From Anaerolineae bacterium (GTDB lineage: Bacteria; Chloroflexota; Anaerolineae; Anaerolineales; Villigracilaceae): a stretch of 7,276 nucleotides of DNA. Below are positions 1-7,276 of this stretch, piece by piece; positions within the stretch are counted from its first letter, which is position 1; each line of letters begins with the position of its first letter. The stretch spans positions 1 to 7,276 of the forward strand of contig JAFLCF010000207.1 of NCBI GenBank assembly GCA_017303735.1, read 5' to 3'. Under the pieces are notes generated by a model. That model saw only the letters and a program-made list of their open reading frames with translations, made no database searches and was not told the origin of the DNA. Both the position numbers and the translations under genes were made by a program.

Positions 1-866
1 CCGGCGTTATTGAAGTGCAGCGCATTTCCAAACCGTACAAACTTGCCTCGCGCCAATTCCATGAACAAGATTCTGTTTTTGAATTTAACGGCTTCACCAT
101 TGGCGGCACCGAAGTGCCCATCATCGCGGGTCCCTGCTCCGTGGAAGGTCGTACGCAAATTCTCGAAGTAGCGCAAGCTGTGAAAGAAGCAGGCGCGAAT
201 GCTTTGCGCGGCGGCGTCTTCAAGCCGCGTACATCGCCATATGCTTTTCAAGGCTTAGGCGAAGAAGGTCTCGAATACATGGCAGAAGCCCGCGAAAAAA
301 CTGGTCTGCCGCTCGTGGTTGAGGTGATGGCGGTCTCGCAAATTGAGATGATGGAAAAATATGTAGACATCTTCCAACTTGGTGCGCGCAACATGCAGAA
401 CTTCAATCTGCTGCGTGCCCTGGGTGAAACCCGCACGCCCGTGCTTTTCAAACGCGGCATGTCTGCCACCATTGAAGAAATGCTCATGGCAAGCGAATAC
501 ATTCTCAACGGCGGCAATCACAAGGTCATCTTGTGCGAGCGTGGTATCCGCACATTCGAAACCGCCACTCGCAACACCACCGACATCAACGCAGTGCCCG
601 TTCTCAAGAAACTGACTCACCTGCCCGTCGTCATCGACCCATCGCATTCAACAGGTGATGCTGAGTACGTCCAATCGATTGCCCGTGCAGGTGTCGCCGC
701 TGGAGCCGATGGTCTCATCGTCGAAGTTCATCAAGATCCGCCGCACGCCGTCTCCGATGGCAAGCAATCGCTCACACCTGAAGCCTTTGCCAAGATGGTG
801 AAACAGGTCAAAGCGGTGGCTGAAGCGGTGGACCGCAAACTCGTCAACTCCCATGTCACAGCCTGA
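1..866 (+). CDS. aroF: 3-deoxy-7-phosphoheptulonate (DAHP) synthase, 5'-truncated by the window edge
   Basis: Condenses phosphoenolpyruvate with erythrose 4-phosphate to DAHP, the entry step of the shikimate pathway, in the cytoplasm. The frame is open to the window edge: codons from base 3 read [19 protein letters not shown], family sequence upstream of the GTG at 15, so that GTG is an internal valine. Motifs in order are [51 protein letters not shown] and VSDGKQSL. Expected metal ligands are Cys (135-137), His (645-647), Glu (723-725) and Asp (756-758). Their spacing of 170, 26 and 11 residues equals that of T. maritima DAHP synthase as I recall it. By that comparison about 57 N-terminal residues, most of the regulatory ferredoxin-like domain, are missing, so tyrosine or phenylalanine feedback cannot be judged. 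The last 14 bases overlap tyrA. The type I-beta (KDO8P synthase-like) assignment is firm; the paralogue letter is convention. Confidence 0.95.
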
Positions 867-1710
867 CTTTAATCTCGCAGAGTCCAAGATCGCCATCATC
901 GGATTGGGCTTGATGGGCGGATCGCTGGCATTGGGATTGCGTGGAAAATGCGCCGCGCTCTATGGAGTCGACCCGCATCTTCCCACGCTCGAGCTTGCTC
1001 TGTCTCAACACATCGTGGACTACGCTGACAGCGACCCTGCCAAACTGCTCCCCGAAGCGGATCTGGTTATCCTATCTGCGCCCGTCCCTGCGATTTTGAC
1101 TCTGCTGGAAAAGTTGCCTTCGTTCACATCCAACTCTTGCATTGTGATGGACTTGGGTTCTGCAAAAAAACAAATTGTCGATGCAATGAAGAATCTGCCC
1201 GAGCACTTCGACCCCATCGGCGGACATCCTATTTGCGGCAAGGAAAAACTCTCGCTTGCAAATGCAGAAAGAACTTTGTACTACGCCGCGCCATTCTTGC
1301 TTACGCCGCTCGAAAGAACTTCACAACGTGCCGTCGCTGCCGCCAATCAAATCATCGAAGCACTGGGAGCCAAAGGTAAAATTCTTGAGGCTTCAGAACA
1401 TGACCGCATCCTTGCCGCGACGAGTCATTTGCCTTTCTTGATCTCATCTGCGCTGGCATTGGCAACCCCTGAAGAAGTCGCTCCCTTTGTTGGACCAGGC
1501 TTCAAGTCCACGAGCCGACTCGCGGGCACATCCTCCTCCATGATGCTGGGCGTTTTACAGTCAAACCGCGAGAATGTGTTGGAAGCATTGCATCGAATAC
1601 AAAATGAATTTGCTCAACTCGAAGCTGCACTAACCGCTGACGATTTTGTAAAAGTCGAATCCCTGCTAAACAAAGCGCAGTCCAAACACCAATCCTTCAC
1701 TGGTAACTAA
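853..1710 (+). CDS. tyrA: Prephenate dehydrogenase (TyrA family)
   Basis: Oxidatively decarboxylates prephenate to 4-hydroxyphenylpyruvate for tyrosine synthesis; arogenate as substrate cannot be excluded. The 285-residue protein opens with a Rossmann fold, GLGLMGGS at residues 17-24. Asp40 ends the second strand and suggests NAD rather than NADP. Family motifs follow: HPICGKE with the likely catalytic His125, TSHLP with His192, and [10 protein letters not shown] with the substrate-binding Arg. No fused chorismate mutase or ACT domain is seen, so the mutase must lie elsewhere. The ATG at 853 lies inside the end of aroF in another frame with no clear Shine-Dalgarno, so translation is probably coupled to aroF. 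The last three sense codons (Thr-Gly-Asn) and the TAA stop lie in a 7-base repeat tract starting at 1699, so the C-terminus has been set by the repeat. Confidence 0.93.
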
Positions 1711-1741
1711 TTACTGGATAATTCTTTCCTCTTTCTTCTTT
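1699..1741. repeat. 7-base-period tract filling the tyrA/aroA spacer
   Basis: Two adjoining blocks. Bases 1699-1719 are three heptamers (ACTGGTA, ACTAATT, ACTGGAT). After one extra base, 1721-1741 are three heptamers of form NNTCTTT (ATTCTTT, CCTCTTT, CTTCTTT). The first block codes the last residues of tyrA and its TAA stop (1708-1710). The second leaves aroA with a pyrimidine-only leader and no Shine-Dalgarno. Both unit types recur in the aroE/aroC spacer. Confidence 0.85.
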
Positions 1742-1742
1742 A

Positions 1743-3044
1743 ATGCCCACTCTTCCACCTTCCCTCCGCATCACTCCTATCGATCACCCGCTGAACGCCA
1801 CCGTCCGCGTCCCCGGCTCCAAGTCATTGACCAATCGCGCCTTGCTGATTGCATCCTTGGCAAACGGCACAACCCACCTCACCAACACTCTCTTCTCAGA
1901 TGACTCGCGTTATTTCGCTAAAGCTCTGCAAATCCTCGGCTTTGATGTTCAACTCGATGAAGAAAATTTTTCAATGTCAGTCGCGGGCATGGGTGGAAAA
2001 ATTCCTGCAAAGAAAGCGGAACTCTTCATTGGTAACGCTGGTACTGCTGCGAGATTTTTATCTGCATTCCTTACACTCGGACACGGCGAATACATTTTGG
2101 ATGGCGAACCGCGCATGCGCGAACGTCCGATAAGGGATTTGGTTGATTCGTTGACACAACTTGGCGCAAAACTCGAACCGACAAATGACTGTCCACCCGT
2201 GAAGATTTCGGCAAATGGCTTACCTGGCGGAAAGACAACTATTGCTGGTGATATTTCTTCTCAATTCTTATCTGCACTGCTAATGGTCGCTCCATACGCT
2301 AAAAGCCCCATTGAAGTGACTCTCTCCACTGACCTCAACTCCAAACCCTACGTGGACATGACCATTTCCATCATGAAAGACTTCGGCGTGGAAGTTGAAC
2401 GGGATGGGTATGAATATTTCAAAGTGCCAGTTACCAGTTATCAGTTACCAGTTACCAGTTACCCAATTGAAAGTGACGCCTCCGCCGCCTCCTACTTCTT
2501 CGCCGCCCCTGCTATCTGCGGCGGGACTGTCAAGGTGGAGAACATCTCGCGCAAATCGGTGCAAGGCGATGTTGCCTTTGTGGATGTCTTGAAACAAATG
2601 GGCTGTATCGTTGAGGAGAACGATAATTCGATACTCGTGACTCGTAACTCGTCGCTTGTCGGCGTAGATATTGATATGCGCGACATCCCCGACACCGCCC
2701 AAACCCTCGCTGCAGTTGCGCCCTTTGCTAATTCTCCCACCACCATTCGTGGAATTGCCTCGGCGCGAGTTAAAGAAACAGATCGAGTATCCGCCACCTG
2801 CACAGAATTGAAGCGACTGGGTGTTGACGTGGAAGAACACGAAGATGGCATGACCATCTATCCATGCAAAACGTTCAAACCTGCTAACATTCAAACCTAT
2901 AACGACCACCGCATGGCAATGGCATTTTCCCTCATCGGCTTGCGTTTCGATGGCGTCACCATTGAAAATCCATCCTGTGTATCCAAGACCTTTCCCAATT
3001 TCTTTGAAGTGCTTGAACAATTGCGTACCCAAGGAAACAAGTAA
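1743..3044 (+). CDS. aroA: 3-phosphoshikimate 1-carboxyvinyltransferase (EPSP synthase)
   Basis: Transfers the enolpyruvyl group of PEP to shikimate 3-phosphate, pathway step six. At 433 residues it is close to the E. coli length. Conserved sites are PGSKSLTNR (Lys27, Ser28, Arg32), GNAGTAARF (97-105, keeping the glycine equivalent to E. coli Gly96), RERP with Arg128, SSQFLSALL with Gln174, ESDASAASYF, DIPDTA with catalytic Asp317, KETDR with Glu345 and Arg348, YNDHRMA with Arg390, and a C-terminal SKTFPNFF. In GNAGTAARF, Phe stands where E. coli-like enzymes have Pro. Two 7-base repeat tracts lie in frame, coding residues 229-240 and 297-304, both in loops between conserved blocks, so the enzyme looks intact. 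The ATG follows a wholly pyrimidine-rich repeat tract and has no Shine-Dalgarno. It is the only start that retains the N-terminal strand before PGSKS. Confidence 0.96.
   Translation: MPTLPPSLRITPIDHPLNATVRVPGSKSLTNRALLIASLANGTTHLTNTLFSDDSRYFAKALQILGFDVQLDEENFSMSVAGMGGKIPAKKAELFIGNAGTAARFLSAFLTLGHGEYILDGEPRMRERPIRDLVDSLTQLGAKLEPTNDCPPVKISANGLPGGKTTIAGDISSQFLSALLMVAPYAKSPIEVTLSTDLNSKPYVDMTISIMKDFGVEVERDGYEYFKVPVTSYQLPVTSYPIESDASAASYFFAAPAICGGTVKVENISRKSVQGDVAFVDVLKQMGCIVEENDNSILVTRNSSLVGVDIDMRDIPDTAQTLAAVAPFANSPTTIRGIASARVKETDRVSATCTELKRLGVDVEEHEDGMTIYPCKTFKPANIQTYNDHRMAMAFSLIGLRFDGVTIENPSCVSKTFPNFFEVLEQLRTQGNK
2427..2461. repeat. Five-copy CCAGTTA heptamer tract inside aroA
   Basis: Five head-to-tail copies of CCAGTTA; the third copy reads TCAGTTA. 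Seven is not a multiple of three, so the frame rotates and the peptide repeats every seven residues, PVTSYQL then PVTSY (residues 229-240). The unit is the reverse complement of TAACTGG, the type seen in the spacers at 1699 and 3904. The tract ends just before the conserved ESDAS block. Confidence 0.93.
2633..2653. repeat. Three-copy ACTCGTN heptamer tract inside aroA
   Basis: Three tandem units: ACTCGTG, ACTCGTA, ACTCGTC. They code roughly residues 297-304 (ILVTRNSS), in the loop before the catalytic DIPDTA motif. Unit boundaries create TGA at 2638 and TAA at 2645, both out of the aroA frame. The third unit ends in C, so the next boundary (2652-2654, in frame) reads TCG. Confidence 0.75.
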
Positions 3045-3051
3045 ACAGGTG

Positions 3052-3879
3052 ATGATGAATTATCAACTTGGTTTAATCGGTTACCCCTTGGGACACTCAC
3101 TATCGCCAAAGATTCATACAGCGGCTTTAGTCGTTTGCGGCTTACAAGGAACCTATTCCCTATTTCCAATTCACCCTGACGACAAACAAGGCTTGCACAA
3201 CCTGCTCGCCCAAGTCCGCAACGGCGAGATTCACGGACTCAACATCACCATTCCGCACAAACAGAATGTCATCGAATTTATGGATGAACTGATGCCCACT
3301 GCAAAAGCCATTGGCGCGGTCAATACGATTTATATGCGAGAAGATAAGTTAATTGGGGATAATACAGATGCGCCAGGGTTTCTCTCAGACCTCAAACGGG
3401 TTTCAAATTCATCATTCAGCACTCCGCATTCTGCACTGGTCCTCGGTGCGGGAGGTTCTGCGCGAGCTGTAGTATATGCTTTAGCCAATGATGGTTGGAA
3501 TGTAACCATAGCTGCTCGAAGACTCGAACAAGCCAAACAACTTGCTCAATCCTTCCTTAATTACCAATTACTAATTACAAATCTCGATGACCTTCAACCT
3601 TTGACTTTCGACTTGATTGTAAATACCACGCCTTTAGGAACGACGCCCAACATCGAAACCTCACCTCTGCCTGAAAACATCATCCTTTCAAAAAACACTT
3701 TTGTTTATGATTTAGTGTATAACCCACGCGAGACGAAACTTGTCCGCGACGCACGCGCACAGGGACTGAACGCTTCTACAGGATTAGGTATGCTGATCGA
3801 ACAAGCCGCCCTCGCCTTCGAGAAATGGACAGGTCACAACCCGCCGCGCGAAATTCTTTATCAAGCTATTGAACCCTAA
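3052..3879 (+). CDS. aroE: Shikimate dehydrogenase (NADP+)
   Basis: Reduces 3-dehydroshikimate to shikimate, step four. I start it at the ATG at 3052, seven bases after the aroA stop, giving 275 residues. The next codon (3055) is also ATG and would do as well. An upstream in-frame ATG at 2950 would overlap aroA by 95 bases and add non-family sequence, so it is rejected. Motifs are PLGHSLSPKIH (12-22, shikimate hydroxyl-binding serines), NITIPHKQ with catalytic Lys70, GAVNTI with Asn91, GDNTDAPGF with catalytic Asp106, the nucleotide loop GAGGSARAV (132-140), AARR (154-157, fits NADP 2'-phosphate binding), NTTPLG and GLGMLIEQAALAF. Two 7-base repeat tracts lie in frame at residues 119-128 and 170-176, in loops flanking the nucleotide-binding core. 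Weak AGGTGA just before the starts is the only ribosome-binding candidate; coupling to aroA is likely. Confidence 0.95.
   Translation: MMNYQLGLIGYPLGHSLSPKIHTAALVVCGLQGTYSLFPIHPDDKQGLHNLLAQVRNGEIHGLNITIPHKQNVIEFMDELMPTAKAIGAVNTIYMREDKLIGDNTDAPGFLSDLKRVSNSSFSTPHSALVLGAGGSARAVVYALANDGWNVTIAARRLEQAKQLAQSFLNYQLLITNLDDLQPLTFDLIVNTTPLGTTPNIETSPLPENIILSKNTFVYDLVYNPRETKLVRDARAQGLNASTGLGMLIEQAALAFEKWTGHNPPREILYQAIEP
3407..3434. repeat. Four-copy AYTCNGC heptamer tract inside aroE
   Basis: Four diverged units (ATTCATC, ATTCAGC, ACTCCGC, ATTCTGC) code residues 119-128, rich in Ser, directly before the strand leading into the GAGGSARAV nucleotide loop. A seven-base register is kept although no two units are identical. 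Weaker than the other tracts, since chance similarity is harder to exclude. Confidence 0.65.
3559..3579. repeat. Three-copy AATTACN heptamer tract inside aroE
   Basis: Three tandem units, AATTACC, AATTACT and AATTACA, code exactly residues 170-176 (NYQLLIT), in the loop before the conserved FDLIVNTTPLG strand. The core AATTAC is the one used in the aroC tract. Read as TAATTAC, the unit has T where the resulting TAA is out of frame and C at 3565 where it would be in frame. Confidence 0.8.
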
Positions 3880-3938
3880 TTCTTTCTTCTTTCATCTTTT
3901 ATTACTGGTTACTACTCACGGGTAACTGGATACTGGAG
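3879..3938. repeat. 7-base-period tract filling most of the aroE/aroC spacer
   Basis: Bases 3879-3899 are three NNTCTTT units (ATTCTTT, CTTCTTT, CATCTTT), starting in the last base of the aroE stop codon. After four bases, 3904-3938 are five units around ACTGGWN (ACTGGTT, ACTACTC, ACGGGTA, ACTGGAT, ACTGGAG). The same two blocks occur in the tyrA/aroA spacer in the opposite order. The last unit contains the aroC ribosome binding site. Confidence 0.85.
3935..3938 (+). promoter_or_regulatory. aroC ribosome binding site inside a repeat unit
   Basis: GGAG six bases before the ATG at 3945. It exists because the last heptamer ends in GAG (ACTGGAG) where its neighbour ends in GAT. No other Shine-Dalgarno is visible for aroC. 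Confidence 0.7.
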
Positions 3939-3944
3939 ACAATT

Positions 3945-5138
3945 ATGCCCTTACGTTTTCTCACTGCAGGTGAATCGCACGGACCCTCACTCACCACCAT
4001 TCTGGATGGTCTCCCCGCTGGGCTGCCCCTCTTGCCAGACATCATCAACAAAGAACTCGCCCGCCGTCAGCAAGGCTACGGCTCAGGCGGACGCATGAAA
4101 ATCGAAAAAGACACCGTGCAAATTCTCGGCGGCGTGATGGGCGGCGAAACCACAGGCGCGCCGATTGCATTGCTTGTTCAAAACGATGACCATGTCAAAT
4201 GGAAGGGCAAAGCCATCGAGCCGATGACCGCCCCACGCCCAGGTCACGCGGATTTAACAGGCGCGGTCAAATACGGTTACAAAGATTTGCGCCCTGCACT
4301 GGAACGTGCCTCCGCTCGAGAGACCACCATGCGCGTCGCGGCTGGTGCAGTCTGTAAGCATTTCCTCGCGCAGTTTGGGATCATCGTCGGCGGATATGTC
4401 GCCTCCATCGGCGAAGTCTCCGCCGACTTTGGCGACATGCCCTACGAAGAACGCTTCATCCGCGCCGAAGAGTCGGATGTGCGTTGCCCAGTCGAATCCT
4501 CCGCTGACAAAATGCGCGCTGAAATTGAAAAGACCATCCACGGCAAGAACACCCTCGGCGGCGTGCTGGAAATCATTGCGCTCAACCTACCTGTTGGCTT
4601 GGGTAGCTTCGTTCAATGGGATCGTCGCCTGGAAGCCAAACTTGCTCATGCCATCATGTCTGTCCAAGCCATCAAAGGCGTCGAAGTTGGTGATGCCTTC
4701 GAAAACGCAAAACGGATCGGAACAGAAGCACACGACCCAATTCAATTACGAATTACGGATCACGAATTACGTAATACGCAATCCGTAATTCGTAATTCGA
4801 ACCGCGCAGGCGGCACCGAAGGTGGAGTGAGCAACGGTCAGCCCATCGTCATCCGCGCCGCGATGAAACCGATTGCCACAACCCTCGTCCCGCAGCAAAC
4901 CGTGGACCTCGCCAAGGGTGAAAACGCTCCCACCAAATACGAACGCTCCGATTTTTGTCCCGTTCCACGGGCTGTACCAATTTTAGAATCCATGGTTGCC
5001 TTCGTCCTCGCTGATGCCCTGCTCGAAAAACTCGGCGGCGACTCCATCAACGAAATGAAACCGCGCTTTGAAACTTTGAGAAAAGCCACCCTCGAAGATT
5101 TACCAATGGATAATATTCCACATATTTTTTGGGAATAA
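3945..5138 (+). CDS. aroC: Chorismate synthase
   Basis: Eliminates phosphate from EPSP to give chorismate, the last common step, using reduced FMN. The 397-residue protein has GESHGPSL with catalytic His12, RRQQGYGSGGRMKIEKD (40-56), PRPGHADLTG with second catalytic His101, RASARETTMRVAAGA, SVQAIKGVEVGDAF, NRAGGTEGG (286-294), AAMKPI and RSDFCPVP. Two things are odd. First, Ser47 replaces the arginine usual in GYGRGGRM, a cofactor-site residue in related enzymes. Second, residues 267-285 between the HD motif and NRAGG are encoded by a palindromic 7-base repeat tract, and the segment seems about seven residues longer than is usual. All other motifs are intact, so I read it as functional. The start has GGAG at 3935-3938, six bases upstream, which lies inside the last unit of a repeat tract. 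Confidence 0.96.
   Translation: MPLRFLTAGESHGPSLTTILDGLPAGLPLLPDIINKELARRQQGYGSGGRMKIEKDTVQILGGVMGGETTGAPIALLVQNDDHVKWKGKAIEPMTAPRPGHADLTGAVKYGYKDLRPALERASARETTMRVAAGAVCKHFLAQFGIIVGGYVASIGEVSADFGDMPYEERFIRAEESDVRCPVESSADKMRAEIEKTIHGKNTLGGVLEIIALNLPVGLGSFVQWDRRLEAKLAHAIMSVQAIKGVEVGDAFENAKRIGTEAHDPIQLRITDHELRNTQSVIRNSNRAGGTEGGVSNGQPIVIRAAMKPIATTLVPQQTVDLAKGENAPTKYERSDFCPVPRAVPILESMVAFVLADALLEKLGGDSINEMKPRFETLRKATLEDLPMDNIPHIFWE
4744..4799. repeat. Eight-copy palindromic heptamer tract inside aroC
   Basis: Eight units in strict 7-base register: AATTACG at 4744, 4751 and 4765, with GATCACG between at 4758, then TAATACG (4772), CAATCCG (4779) and TAATTCG at 4786 and 4793. The arm AATTACGAATTACGGAT (4744-4760) is the exact reverse complement of 4781-4797, and the centre ATTACGTAAT (4766-4775) shares the same axis. 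Of 27 opposing pairs, 24 match. It codes residues 267-285 of chorismate synthase without breaking the frame. Confidence 0.93.
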
Positions 5139-5144
5139 ATACCT

Positions 5145-5263
5145 CGTCATTGCGAGGGCGGTGCTCTTCCGCCCGAAGCAATCTCATTATTAAATCTGGG
5201 ATTGCTTCGTCGCAACCCCGATTTACATCGGGGCAAGCGAACAAAACGCTCCTCGCAATGACG
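5145..5263. repeat. Inverted-repeat element in the aroC/aroKB spacer
   Basis: The ends are a perfect 13-base inverted repeat, CGTCATTGCGAGG (5145-5157) and its complement (5251-5263). Inside are three more hairpins: GGGCGG/CCGCCC (5156-5161/5169-5174), CGAAGCAATC/GATTGCTTCG (5174-5183/5200-5209) and CCCCGAT/ATCGGGG (5216-5222/5227-5233). CGTCATTGCGAGG with CGAAGCAATC is a wording I recognise from dispersed non-coding repeats in many bacterial genomes, so this is probably a MITE- or REP-like element. It has no transposase and no visible target duplication. No T-run follows, so it is not an obvious terminator. Confidence 0.85.
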
Positions 5264-5266
5264 AAT

Positions 5267-5270
5267 GGAG
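5267..5270 (+). promoter_or_regulatory. aroKB ribosome binding site
   Basis: GGAG four bases before the ATG at 5275 and only three bases beyond the right end of the inverted-repeat element. Folding of that element could therefore affect access to it; this is inference. Confidence 0.65.
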
Positions 5271-5274
5271 AATT

Positions 5275-6783
5275 ATGACTCACCTCTTCCTATACGGTCC
5301 TCCCGGCACGGGCAAATCGACAGTCGGTAAAAAAATCGCCCACAACCTCAAACTGCCCTTCATTGACCTTGACCGCGTCATTGAAACGAATGCAGGCATG
5401 TCCATTCCGCAGATCATGGAACAGCACGGCGAGACCGCGTTTCGCGATATGGAAACCGCCGCGTTGAAATCGCTAACAGCCGAAAAAGAACATGTTGTAG
5501 CTCTTGGTGGTGGCGCACTTCTCCGTGATGAAAACCGCGCCTTTGCAGAATCGAATGGCAGAGTCCTTTTGCTCATGGCGGAACTCCCCACTTTGCTTGA
5601 CCGCATTCAACATGAGCCAGGTAAACGTCCGCTGTTGGCGGGGGATTTAAAGAACAAGCTCACGACGCTGCTTGAAAAACGCAAAGAGCATTACGCTTCC
5701 TTCCCACTTCAACATCATGTTGATAACAAACCCGCCGAACAAAATGCGCGTGAAGTACAGATCAAACTTGGCAGGCATCACCTCTCTGCCATGGGTGAGT
5801 ACGATGTTGTTGTGGGTTCTGTATTCAATGTGCCTGATCTGCAAAACTCTATCATCGTCACCGATGAGAACGTGGCAAAGCATCACCTCGAAAAAATTCA
5901 AAGTCTCTTCAATGCCAAAGCCGTGATTGTGCCTGCGGGTGAAGAACATAAAAATCTCGAAACTGTCTCACACTTGTGGAAAGCCTTTCTCGAAAATGGA
6001 CTCGACCGCAAGAGCACCGTCATTGCACTCGGCGGCGGCGTGATCGGTGACATGACGGGCTTCGCTGCTGCGACCTACATGCGCGGCATTGATTGGATCG
6101 GCATTCCCACAACTCTGCTTTCGATGGTGGATGCTTCGTTGGGTGGCAAGACTGGATTTGATTTACCCGAAGGAAAAAACCTCATCGGCTCATTTCATCC
6201 GCCGAAGCTGGTCATTGCAGACCCAAGCCTTTTGCTTACGCTGACAGAGCGTGAACTACGCTCCGGCATGGCAGAAGTGGTGAAGCATGGAATCATCTCA
6301 GCGCCCGATCTGTTCGCCATGTGCCAGCGCGGCATGGACTGGGTGAAGGCAAATCTCGAAGAAGTGGTCAAACATGCGATGGCGGTGAAGATCAAAGTCA
6401 TCGAAGAGGACCCGTACGAAAAAGGATTCCGTGCGGCGTTGAATTTGGGTCACACGGTTGGGCACGCGGTGGAACTGGTCAGCAAGTTTGAGCTGCGGCA
6501 TGGCGAGGCGATTGCCGTTGGCACTGCGGCTGAGGCGAGGTATGCGGCTCGGGTTGGGCTGACAAGCCAAAGCACGGTCGAAGCGATTGAGTCCACGCTT
6601 GAGGCGTTGGGTTTGCCAATCCAAATCCCTGTAGATATGCCGCGCGAGAAAATCATCCAAGCCATGCGGGTGGATAAAAAGAAGAATGCGAAGTCGATTC
6701 GCTTTGCGTTGCCGGTGGAAATTGGTAAAGTTGAGTTGGTGAATGTAGATGATTTGGAAACAGTATTGGACGATGGACGATAG
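5275..6783 (+). CDS. aroKB: Bifunctional shikimate kinase / 3-dehydroquinate synthase fusion
   Basis: One 502-residue protein joins pathway step five to step two. Residues 1 to about 165 are shikimate kinase: P-loop GPPGTGKST (8-16), FIDLD with Asp33, FRDME with Arg57, GGG 78-80 for shikimate, lid Arg118 in KRPLL, and Arg136. Residues from about 174 are dehydroquinate synthase, which cyclises DAHP to 3-dehydroquinate with NAD and a metal: GGGVIGD (253-259), PTTLLSMVDASLGGK (278-292, Asp286 and Lys292), AEVVKHG with Glu334, NLGHTVGH with His393, and RHGEA with His409. Glu334, His393 and His409 are the expected metal ligands. The P-loop is unusual, since kinases of this family more often read GxMGxGKS. 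The frame is open throughout, so this is a true fusion, as known in Thermotoga. GGAG at 5267-5270 precedes the ATG by four bases. Residues 499-502 and the TAG stop come from a 7-base repeat tract. Confidence 0.95.
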   Translation: MTHLFLYGPPGTGKSTVGKKIAHNLKLPFIDLDRVIETNAGMSIPQIMEQHGETAFRDMETAALKSLTAEKEHVVALGGGALLRDENRAFAESNGRVLLLMAELPTLLDRIQHEPGKRPLLAGDLKNKLTTLLEKRKEHYASFPLQHHVDNKPAEQNAREVQIKLGRHHLSAMGEYDVVVGSVFNVPDLQNSIIVTDENVAKHHLEKIQSLFNAKAVIVPAGEEHKNLETVSHLWKAFLENGLDRKSTVIALGGGVIGDMTGFAAATYMRGIDWIGIPTTLLSMVDASLGGKTGFDLPEGKNLIGSFHPPKLVIADPSLLLTLTERELRSGMAEVVKHGIISAPDLFAMCQRGMDWVKANLEEVVKHAMAVKIKVIEEDPYEKGFRAALNLGHTVGHAVELVSKFELRHGEAIAVGTAAEARYAARVGLTSQSTVEAIESTLEALGLPIQIPVDMPREKIIQAMRVDKKKNAKSIRFALPVEIGKVELVNVDDLETVLDDGR

Positions 6784-6830
6784 ACCGCAGACGATGGACA
6801 CCATGGTCAATGGTCCATCGTCTATGGTCG
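6768..6830. repeat. Nine-unit heptamer tract with inverted halves at the aroKB/aroQ junction
   Basis: Nine consecutive 7-base units. The left half is built on GGACGAT/AGACGAT (6768-6795) and the right half on its near complement ATGGTCC/ATCGTCT (6803-6830). AGACGATGGAC (6789-6799) pairs perfectly with GTCCATCGTCT (6813-6823), and after a two-base bulge GACC (6783-6786) pairs with GGTC (6826-6829). The first units code the last four residues of AroKB and its TAG stop. No T-run follows, so it is a hairpin but not a classical terminator. Confidence 0.85.
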
Positions 6831-6841
6831 AATATCAAAGC

Positions 6842-6845
6842 GAGG
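6842..6845 (+). promoter_or_regulatory. aroQ ribosome binding site
   Basis: GAGG with a four-base spacer to the ATG at 6850, lying outside the repeat hairpin that ends near 6830. Confidence 0.65.
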
Positions 6846-6849
6846 AAGC

Positions 6850-7276
6850 ATGAAAATCTTAATTCTGCACGGACCGAATTTGAATTTGTTGGGTACGCGC
6901 GAGCCTGAAGTCTATGGCTCGATGACATTGGATAACATCAATGAAAAGATGATTGCGTTGGGCAAAGAGTTTGGCGCGGAAGTGATTTGCAAACAGTCGA
7001 ATCACGAAGGCGCGTTGATCGATGCCCTGCACGATGCGCGGACTTGGGCAGCGGGCGTGGTCTTCAACCCCGGCGGGTACACGCATACGTCGGTGGCGCT
7101 GCGTGATGCAATTTCGGCGATCGTGATTCCGGCGATCGAAGTGCATTTGTCGAACGTGTATGCGCGGGAAGAGTTTCGGCATGTGTCGTTCGTTTCGGCG
7201 GTTTGCAAAGGCAAAGTGACCGGCTTTGGCTGGCGCTCATATGAATTGGGTTTGCGCGGGCTCGTTGATATAATTA
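6850..7276 (+). CDS. aroQ: 3-dehydroquinate dehydratase, type II, 3'-truncated by the window edge
   Basis: Dehydrates 3-dehydroquinate to 3-dehydroshikimate, step three, as a dodecamer of flavodoxin-like subunits. The 142 visible residues lack a stop; the family runs to about 145-150, so only the tail is missing. Motifs are ILHGPNLNLLGTREP with Arg17, Tyr22 as catalytic base in VYG, KQSNHEG (48-54), FNPGGYTHTS with Asn73 and His79, EVHLSN with Glu97 and His99, and REEFRH with Arg106 and Arg110. These match the M. tuberculosis active-site residues at a constant offset of two. GAGG at 6842-6845, four bases before the ATG, sets the start. It follows aroKB by 66 bases that begin with a hairpin-forming repeat. 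Codons here end mostly in G (ttg, gcg, gtg), unlike the C-ending codons common further upstream. Confidence 0.95.
   Translation, partial: MKILILHGPNLNLLGTREPEVYGSMTLDNINEKMIALGKEFGAEVICKQSNHEGALIDALHDARTWAAGVVFNPGGYTHTSVALRDAISAIVIPAIEVHLSNVYAREEFRHVSFVSAVCKGKVTGFGWRSYELGLRGLVDII

Follow-up and report, generated by a model that had tools for sequence, protein, structure and literature searches.

What would place tandem repeats of one fixed period, and of differing sequence, along a single operon? This question is raised by a 7,276-nucleotide stretch of an Anaerolineae bacterium (Chloroflexota; Anaerolineales; Villigracilaceae; contig JAFLCF010000207.1, positions 1 to 7,276 of the forward strand), referred to here as the window. 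It carries an aromatic-amino-acid operon that encodes DAHP synthase, a TyrA-like prephenate dehydrogenase, AroA, AroE, AroC, a fused AroK-AroB, and AroQ. A reading of the sequence alone had proposed that eight sites along this operon have a period of exactly 7. The tracts of the window are members of several dispersed families, and genomes favor different unit families or variants. These are probably heptanucleotide-repeat families of the type known as STRR in cyanobacteria, which disperse, are homogenized in a 7-base register, and survive where they are tolerated. In orthologous loops and spacers, the unit differs among relatives and the 7-base register stays.

Heptamer tracts in the aromatic operon

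With a strict tract defined by at least 11 of 12 positions matching at a given lag, the window contains seven tracts at lag 7 (1723-1741, 2427-2464, 2633-2652, 3559-3578, 3880-3899, 4780-4799, and 6767-6785). None is found at lags 2-6 and 8-13, two are found at lag 14, a multiple of 7, and one at lag 15 (7111-7138). Across lags 4-11, 200 dinucleotide shuffles of the window gave no tract at lag 7 and at most one at every lag. Tandem Repeats Finder (TRF) returned 11 rows, nine with period 7, one with period 14, and one with period 15. A period-7 family within the operon, as first proposed, is therefore real. Six of the eight proposed sites pass the strict test, and the sites at 1699 and 3407 are weaker and absent from both the TRF and the strict list. 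Yet in both, the lag-7 identity exceeds that of their own lags 5, 6, 8, and 9; for 1699-1722, the weakest, it is 0.59 versus 0.11, 0.06, 0.31, and 0.07. The heptamer tracts and the inverted block that accompanies them are the following.

1699..1722, plus strand: weak heptamer tract of the ACTGGTA class at the end of tyrA, containing the tyrA stop codon (1708-1710)
1723..1741, plus strand: TCTTTCC-type heptamer tract in the tyrA-aroA spacer, adjoining the 1699 site (strict at lag 7; TRF period 7)
2427..2464, plus strand: in-frame aroA array of CCAGTTA (GTTACCA) that encodes VTSYQLPVTSY (TRF, strict)
2633..2652, plus strand: in-frame aroA tract near residue 300, unit ACTCGTA of the GTTACGA class (TRF, strict, loop comparison)
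3407..3436, plus strand: degenerate in-frame aroE tract of the GCATTCN type, at residues 115-126 (lag-7 identity 0.74)
3559..3582, plus strand: in-frame aroE tract of AATTACN units, at about residues 168-176 (TRF, strict)
3880..3899, plus strand: TTCTTTC tract in the aroE-aroC spacer (TRF, strict)
3901..3936, plus strand: imperfect inverted ACTGGTTACT / GGTAACTGG block in the aroE-aroC spacer (fold z -2.4)
4744..4799, plus strand: in-frame palindrome in aroC (residues 267-285), made of an AATTACG array followed by a CGTAATT array
6767..6829, plus strand: palindrome of GGACGAT / GACCATG-type heptamers at the end of aroKB and in the aroKB-aroQ spacer (TRF, inverted repeats)

The tracts take two forms, plain direct arrays and palindromes in which an array is joined to its own reverse complement. 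The direct array in aroA does not fold (z +0.9). It occupies a loop of AroA, residues 220-240, which is of nearly equal length in the solved structure 7tm4 and holds other units in relatives. The palindrome in aroC has arms of 27 nt that are 89% complementary (fold z -6.1) and is an insertion relative to the solved structure 1q1l; the palindrome at 6767-6829 contains the aroKB stop codon (fold z -5.4). The block at 3901-3936 is matched in folding by 5 of 200 shuffles, and composite spacers resembling this aroE-aroC spacer occur in the related loci L001, L004, L009, L014, and L034. The proposed relations between units are borne out: ACTGGTA and CCAGTTA form one class once rotation and reverse complement are allowed, AATTAC is found in aroE and aroC, and TCTTTC in two spacers.

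Period bias in related genomes

The aroC loci of relatives (L001-L071; 71 loci, 1.14 Mb, judged by title nearly all from Anaerolineales or Chloroflexi) contain 4, 9, 315, 41, 13, and 2 strict tracts at lags 5, 6, 7, 8, 9, and 10, and 22, 30, and 39 at lags 12, 15, and 16. Nine loci of other groups (0.17 Mb) have a single tract at lag 7. Loci differ widely, from L053, with 20 tracts in 11 kb, to 11 of the 71 in which strict lag-7 tracts are absent. Of the six peptide patterns used to find the loci, one falls in the window's own aroC array; despite this, the densest tracts lie in and beside aroA and aroE. A background of 30 stretches from other genome parts (600 kb), not chosen by pattern match and with 10 of 40 stretches left out, gave 1, 9, 53, 23, and 8 tracts at lags 5 to 9. 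The resulting 0.88 lag-7 tracts per 10 kb is not an order-wide average, because these stretches come mostly from array-rich genomes and contigs of the pattern-match list.

Lag 7 is thus enriched over lags 5-9 in both samples, which is the outcome that the proposal needed. The claim of a period of exactly 7 is accurate for the window and too narrow for the wider group, where period 8 is a genuine minority (41 versus 315 tracts) and some arrays include single 8-base steps. The period-8 arrays of the 71 loci have recurrent units of their own, such as AAACAGGT, ACACAGGT, and AAGTAGAC.

The register is kept while the units change

Nor do the tracts prove to be ordinary coding sequence conserved across distant relatives, which would have spoken against the proposal; the same loop carries different units in different genomes. 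Loops were cut by search motif from 69 of 72 AroC sequences and from 49 AroA sequences. In the AroC loop, the mean lag-7 identity is 0.593, compared with 0.282 (sd 0.009) for codon shuffles; at lags 5, 6, 8, and 9 it is 0.150, 0.269, 0.371, and 0.170, of which lag 8 also exceeds its own shuffles (0.282). Of these 69 loops, 56 lie above the 99.9th percentile of equal-length blocks elsewhere in aroC, and 47 are 11 or 13 residues long. Their units are AACCTTC, CTAATTC, AACTCGT, CAATTAC, AATTCAG, and others. The AroA loop has an identity of 0.471 at lag 7, whereas the remaining lags in the range 3-12 give values between 0.22 and 0.31. Similarly, relatives have different heptamer units at the AroE site of the 3407-3436 tract, and many have tracts in the AroE region of the 3559-3582 tract. 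The window and L002 have the frame CAATTACnAATTACn in common, with C versus G at the equal phase of successive units, a difference that looks like concerted change.

Dispersed families and genome-specific units

Many copies at unlinked places within one genome are found in the genomes of relatives. Relatives of the aroC palindrome occur in 23 of 29 genomes (39 matches in G005, 22 in G001), and palindromes with a ATACGCAA center occur in aroC (window and L001) as well as in aroA (L034 and L047). A hairpin region of genome G036, for which 24 candidates were scored in each genome, has matches in 16 of the 18 members of its genus, among them 43 in G036 and 35 in G034. These matches lie mostly on a hairpin of about 60 bp, and some lie on another repeat in the query. 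The G036 hairpin had zero matches in plasmid DNA; with regard to a viral origin, an exact ATTACCA triple occurs in five stretches of a viral collection.

The dominant units differ between genomes. Triples of RTTACSA, counted as overlapping matches, number 63 in G036, 42 in G006, 21 in G034, and 2 in G013, and are present in 30 of 45 genomes; triples of TTCRACC are present in 26 of the 45, with 33 matches in G013 and 3 in G036. Among the matches listed from a draw of 301 genomes, all those of G191 are ATTACGA and all those of G299 are GTTACCA. Clustering of the units, which the sequence-only reading had suggested, placed 43 of the 50 units common to at least two loci in one cluster (null mean 14.0, maximum 35). 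Within single loci, the same unit recurs in 96 of 1682 distant pairs, compared with 49.9 (sd 7.9) after permutation.

Loops and spacers that hold arrays

In the 71 loci, the five 500-base bins upstream of the aroC start contain 5.7, 15.3, 10.3, 14.6, and 17.8 tracts per 10 kb. Within aroC, there are 0 in the first 500 bases, followed by 8.8 and 4.1. Farther away, the bins from -10 to -4.5 kb have 0-2.7, with one at 4.5, and those from +1.5 kb onwards 0-1.5. Mapping onto proteins used 72 sequences, in which a broken array may count repeatedly and 12 aroF tracts are unplaced on residues. The 103 tracts of AroA lie mainly at residues 140-159 (26), 220-239 (42), 290-309 (16), and 370-379 (9). The 87 tracts of AroE lie at residues 30-39 (13), 110-129 (22), and 160-189 (49), with 3 at the start, and every one of the 39 tracts of AroC lies at residues 260-289. 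TyrA has 9 tracts, AroKB 3, and AroQ 0; the four spacers from tyrA to aroKB have 19, 20, 21, and 17, and 42 tracts are located elsewhere. These counts correct an initial view of the entire aro operon as hot: since AroKB and AroQ are nearly free of tracts, what is hot are particular loops and spacers and not the operon as such.

Regions around other genes have 0.32 (hisD; 15 loci, 63 kb), 3.4 (trpB; 23 loci, 94 kb), and 1.6 (grpE; 30 loci, 99 kb) tracts per 10 kb; hisD was over the cut-off in only 15 and trpB in 23 of the 30 genomes searched, a shortfall that may come from incomplete metagenome-assembled genomes or from gene loss. In a genome sample of 40 stretches, 101 tracts were divided into 43 inside crude open reading frames (ORFs), 20 across ORF ends, and 38 between ORFs. 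As 91% of this DNA is ORF, the last figure indicates an enrichment in spacers. The corresponding numbers for the aro loci are 242, 28, and 52.

Of the 242 tracts inside ORFs of the aro loci, 189 are free of stop codons in every frame of the sense strand and 65 in every antisense frame, and the sense strand of the tracts is poor in G. Stop-codon avoidance as the sole cause of this bias is partly rejected. Tracts that are open on both strands have more C than G in 33 of 46 cases and the opposite in 12, and 38 of 44 in spacers between plus-strand genes have more C than G. The skew is weaker in spacers of the genome sample (12 versus 7, and 5 versus 4 with 1 equal).

L018 and other relatives have repeat-like peptides of the SPLPEGEGVR, PALSAVEG, and FDQAQG types in the same AroC, AroA, and AroE loops. 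These peptides presumably represent dispersed repeats, and the loops therefore look like general acceptors. The aroE-aroC interval of L002 and L017 contains some 700 bases that look like a gene remnant or a gene for a small membrane protein; in 16 other loci this spacer measures 15 to 120 bases.

The hairpin before dnaK

Outside of the aro operon, the spacer between grpE and dnaK could be cut from 28 of 30 genomes, the remaining two loci having no spacer; folding was counted for 27, one long spacer being omitted. An identity of 0.44 at lag 7 is reached by 17 of the 28 (shuffles: mean 0.09, maximum 1), compared with 3 at lag 8 and 0 at lags 4-6, 9, and 10. Folding gives z < -2 in 25 of 27 and z < -4 in 17 of 27. 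By eye, the arms consist of GGTAAWT, TTGAAGG, TGTCAGG, or TTGCGTA-type units, depending on the genome. Other genomes have alternatives in this place, a TCATTGCGAGG hairpin in G026, G012, and G356 and GC-rich hairpins in G033 and G052, and the long spacer of G358 has no hairpin. The genus of G036 has members in all three of the groups that shared 10-mers define, plus two with the TCATTGCGAGG element. With the hairpin nearly constant and its units variable, the hairpin is kept while its material changes, and selection may be what maintains it. About six unit families had been counted by eye at this slot, and these were reduced to three groups by shared 10-mers.

How the arrays may spread and persist

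The probable explanation given at the outset would involve several steps. New sites would be seeded by array copies from elsewhere in the genome, through template switching or ectopic conversion in shared register. Arrays would then be homogenized in place by 7-base slips or conversion. They would persist where sequence change is tolerated, in surface loops, gene ends, and spacers, with protein tolerance as the filter, and palindromes in spacers may act as mRNA hairpins. The sequence-only reading had proposed one process that copies or extends in 7-base steps. The enrichment at lag 7 agrees with such a process; that it is a single one can only be conjectured, because dispersal, homogenization in place, and tolerance or selection would all contribute and no enzyme was found.

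Several observations weigh against this explanation. The 20 heptamer-built grpE-dnaK slots fall into just three groups by shared 10-mers (14, 4, and 2). Copy numbers are rough, because matches with 2-fold symmetry count on both strands and candidates were scored only in part in rich genomes. RTTACSA triples are rare across the phylum (12 of the 301 genomes drawn). Growth in place is evident in L214, where one array has more than a dozen near-identical units. An inserted array paired with its intact empty site was never seen, and the search for a mover was negative. Part of the unit sharing could stem from descent, as neighboring sequences are related and the composite spacers look inherited.

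The first alternative is independent replication slippage at each site, in which a polymerase bias toward 7-base slips acts on local sequence and tolerant loops and spacers keep the arrays, with no movement. Period 7 is favored regardless of the unit both in the 71 loci and in the 600 kb background, loops that hold arrays often have an unaltered length or remain in frame, and the near-pure L214 array is very long, all of which speaks for slippage. Slippage does not account for dominant units that differ between genomes at unlinked places, nor for palindromes with an irregular center that recur in different genes and across genomes, and the clustering of 43 of 50 units indicates that the units are not a free sample of heptamers. 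Slippage without movement thus appears rather unlikely, if worth retaining.

A bolder and improbable proposal is that Anaerolineales and some cyanobacteria have an activity that copies DNA in a 7-base register. An enzyme such as a polymerase or a reverse transcriptase would re-copy or switch template in 7-base steps and rewrite tolerant sites with any available heptamer template. The register would be inherited and the sequence replaceable, and spacer hairpins would stay intact as both arms are written from one template.

It is quite unlikely that the arrays are selected regulatory sites, for instance for RNA binding or translational control of aromatic biosynthesis and dnaK, with the period set by the protein that reads them. 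The same spacers are hit repeatedly, the folding potential before dnaK is conserved, and MacGregor has proposed translational control for TAACTGA repeats (PMC4679880). There is no common motif, though, as units differ between genomes and even among the tracts of one operon. Many tracts, moreover, lie in coding loops, and 11 of 71 loci are without a strict lag-7 tract.

Movement as REP-like elements by Y1 tyrosine transposases (RAYTs) is scarcely plausible. Short dispersed palindromes in spacers and genes would suit this idea, and Y1_Tnp matches are present in 44 of 45 genomes. The matches are there whatever the arrays of a genome, and their number does not track the arrays: G007, with a tract-free aro locus, has 4, and the array-rich G036 and G013 have 5 and 3. 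The neighborhoods of 20 Y1_Tnp genes have 7 tracts in 46 kb, or 1.5 per 10 kb, which is near the background. Y1 transposases were rejected as the mover because of their presence whatever the arrays and this lack of enrichment. A constant GTAG or CGTC tag was not seen on the palindromes by eye, with no systematic test. Phase-variable contingency loci, in which slips of 7 bases would change the reading frame and turn aro genes off and on, are hardly credible. A unit of 7 does not divide by 3, and neuO of E. coli K1 is reported to undergo phase variation through heptanucleotides (PMC13001214), but the arrays of the window have about 3 to 5 imperfect units and not the long near-perfect array expected of such loci, the loops are in frame in the genomes compared, and the units diverge and are not kept pure.

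Genes and other elements of the window

The three genes that carry in-frame tracts were assigned with curated models.

1743..3044, plus strand: aroA, EPSP synthase (TIGR01356 over cut-off)
3055..3879, plus strand: aroE, shikimate dehydrogenase (TIGR00507 over cut-off)
3945..5138, plus strand: aroC, chorismate synthase (TIGR00033 over cut-off)

The matches of the TyrA-like prephenate dehydrogenase are under the curated cut-offs; in the AroKB fusion, the AroB part is above the cut-off and the AroK part below it. AroC of the window is 93% identical to that of the metagenome-assembled genomes L001 and L002 and 91% identical to that of L003, which is labeled Villigracilaceae. Rfam models at gathering thresholds had zero matches in the window, so that no known structured RNA family is recognized there.

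The aroC-aroKB spacer (5144-5264) is filled by a hairpin, TCGTCATTGCGAGG...CCTCGCAATGACGA, with arms of 14 nt that are 100% complementary; it is not built of heptamers. Its 13-base core is present in 19 of 268 loci, including the same spacer of L001 and the grpE-dnaK spacer of G026, G012, and G356.

What the arrays mean

In PMC4692102 and PMC4679880, which cite a 2007 study, the dominance of heptamers among the long simple repeats of many bacteria is an open question. Anaerolineales offer a natural test bed for it: across dozens of genomes, the same loop or spacer keeps the register under a changing unit, and the dominant units are particular to the genome. The register is therefore separable from the sequence, which is impossible in systems with a single unit. 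For annotation, the arrays are a warning that repeats have given rise to part of the loops, gene ends, and stop codons found in core enzymes of Anaerolineales. They also suggest that hairpins between genes, like that before dnaK, are interchangeable.

Comparison with known heptamer systems

As far as our searches show, a heptamer system is new for Anaerolineales: among the matches listed for heptamer repeats of Chloroflexi or Anaerolineae, no account of such arrays appeared, subscription journals being mostly outside the coverage. The sequence-only reading knew of no equivalent in the Chloroflexota, and this has to be corrected. Chloroflexus aurantiacus is described as having 22 satellites of the heptamer GATAGRA (PMC6749651), thus heptamer repeats in the same phylum, although with a single unit and in another class, a likeness drawn from description. 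More generally, a bacterial excess of heptamers and the hypothesis of a polymerase footprint or 7-base slip go back to the study of 2007 (cited by PMC4692102 and PMC4679880), and a survey finds one subset of the repeats of 6-9 bp to be enriched in prokaryotic phyla (PMC12699852).

The parallel first drawn, with STRR repeats, is a good one. AATTACG, the unit of the window's aroC tract, forms arrays in a plasmid of Tolypothrix PCC 7601, which we take to be the same strain as Calothrix PCC 7601, and in Dolichospermum pAfl69. The latter has five lag-7 arrays in 3 kb, mostly of AATTACG, and 50 kb of the Tolypothrix plasmid has 8 lag-7 tracts versus 0 to 3 at other lags; 50 kb of an E. coli plasmid has 1. 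A pure AATTACG array used as a peptide query returned 12 plasmid records, of which 7 are cyanobacterial, the others being at 46 to 71% identity. The units common to Anaerolineales and cyanobacterial plasmids are AATTACG and AAATCGT, a comparison made with these plasmid arrays. In Planktothrix agardhii p1 (L236, from 1433 onwards), a small annotated protein gene is almost entirely a near-pure ATTTACG array and adjoins DISARM drmA. The precedent consists of three tandem heptanucleotides in Calothrix PCC 7601 (as cited in PMC4692102). The likeness lies in the period of 7, the many sites, and the several units; spacers are enriched in tracts in the genome sample, and in the aro loci most tracts are inside ORFs. 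The arrays of Anaerolineales differ in that they recur in the same AroA, AroE, and AroC loops, with units that vary among relatives and with frequent palindromes.

TAACTGA repeats of Beggiatoaceae, cyanobacteria, and Bacteroidetes are likewise dispersed heptamer arrays, and TAACTGA is one base from the window's GTTACCA. There, one unit is described as dominant and related heptamers as rare (PMC4679880); in Anaerolineales many units coexist, and the TAACTGA class accounts for 2 tracts. The GGGAATC and GGGGA(C/T)T repeats of Xanthomonas and Nostoc are heptamers at many sites, partly inverted, that form G-quadruplexes and vary in length and sequence at the same spacers between relatives (PMC4692102). 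Their class also accounts for 2 tracts here, and the sense strand in Anaerolineales is, in contrast, G-poor. In Geobacter metallireducens, elements of four heptamer units are dispersed both within genes and between them, and there is a fold-back heptamer class (PMC2700814); the consensus there is GC-rich and fixed, whereas in Anaerolineales the units at a given site change.

Rickettsia palindromic elements and REPs are dispersed palindromes, in frame in genes or in spacers (PMC10969869, PMC3733652). In the parts of these sources that were available they are not described as built of heptamers, and the RAYT link of REPs was tested in Anaerolineales and not found. Borg tandem repeats change fast, in genes and spacers, and have perfect units whose length in genes is divisible by three (PMC9879509), which 7 is not. 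What is distinctive of the Anaerolineales arrays is their recurrent place in loops of core enzymes and their occurrence as seemingly interchangeable hairpins.

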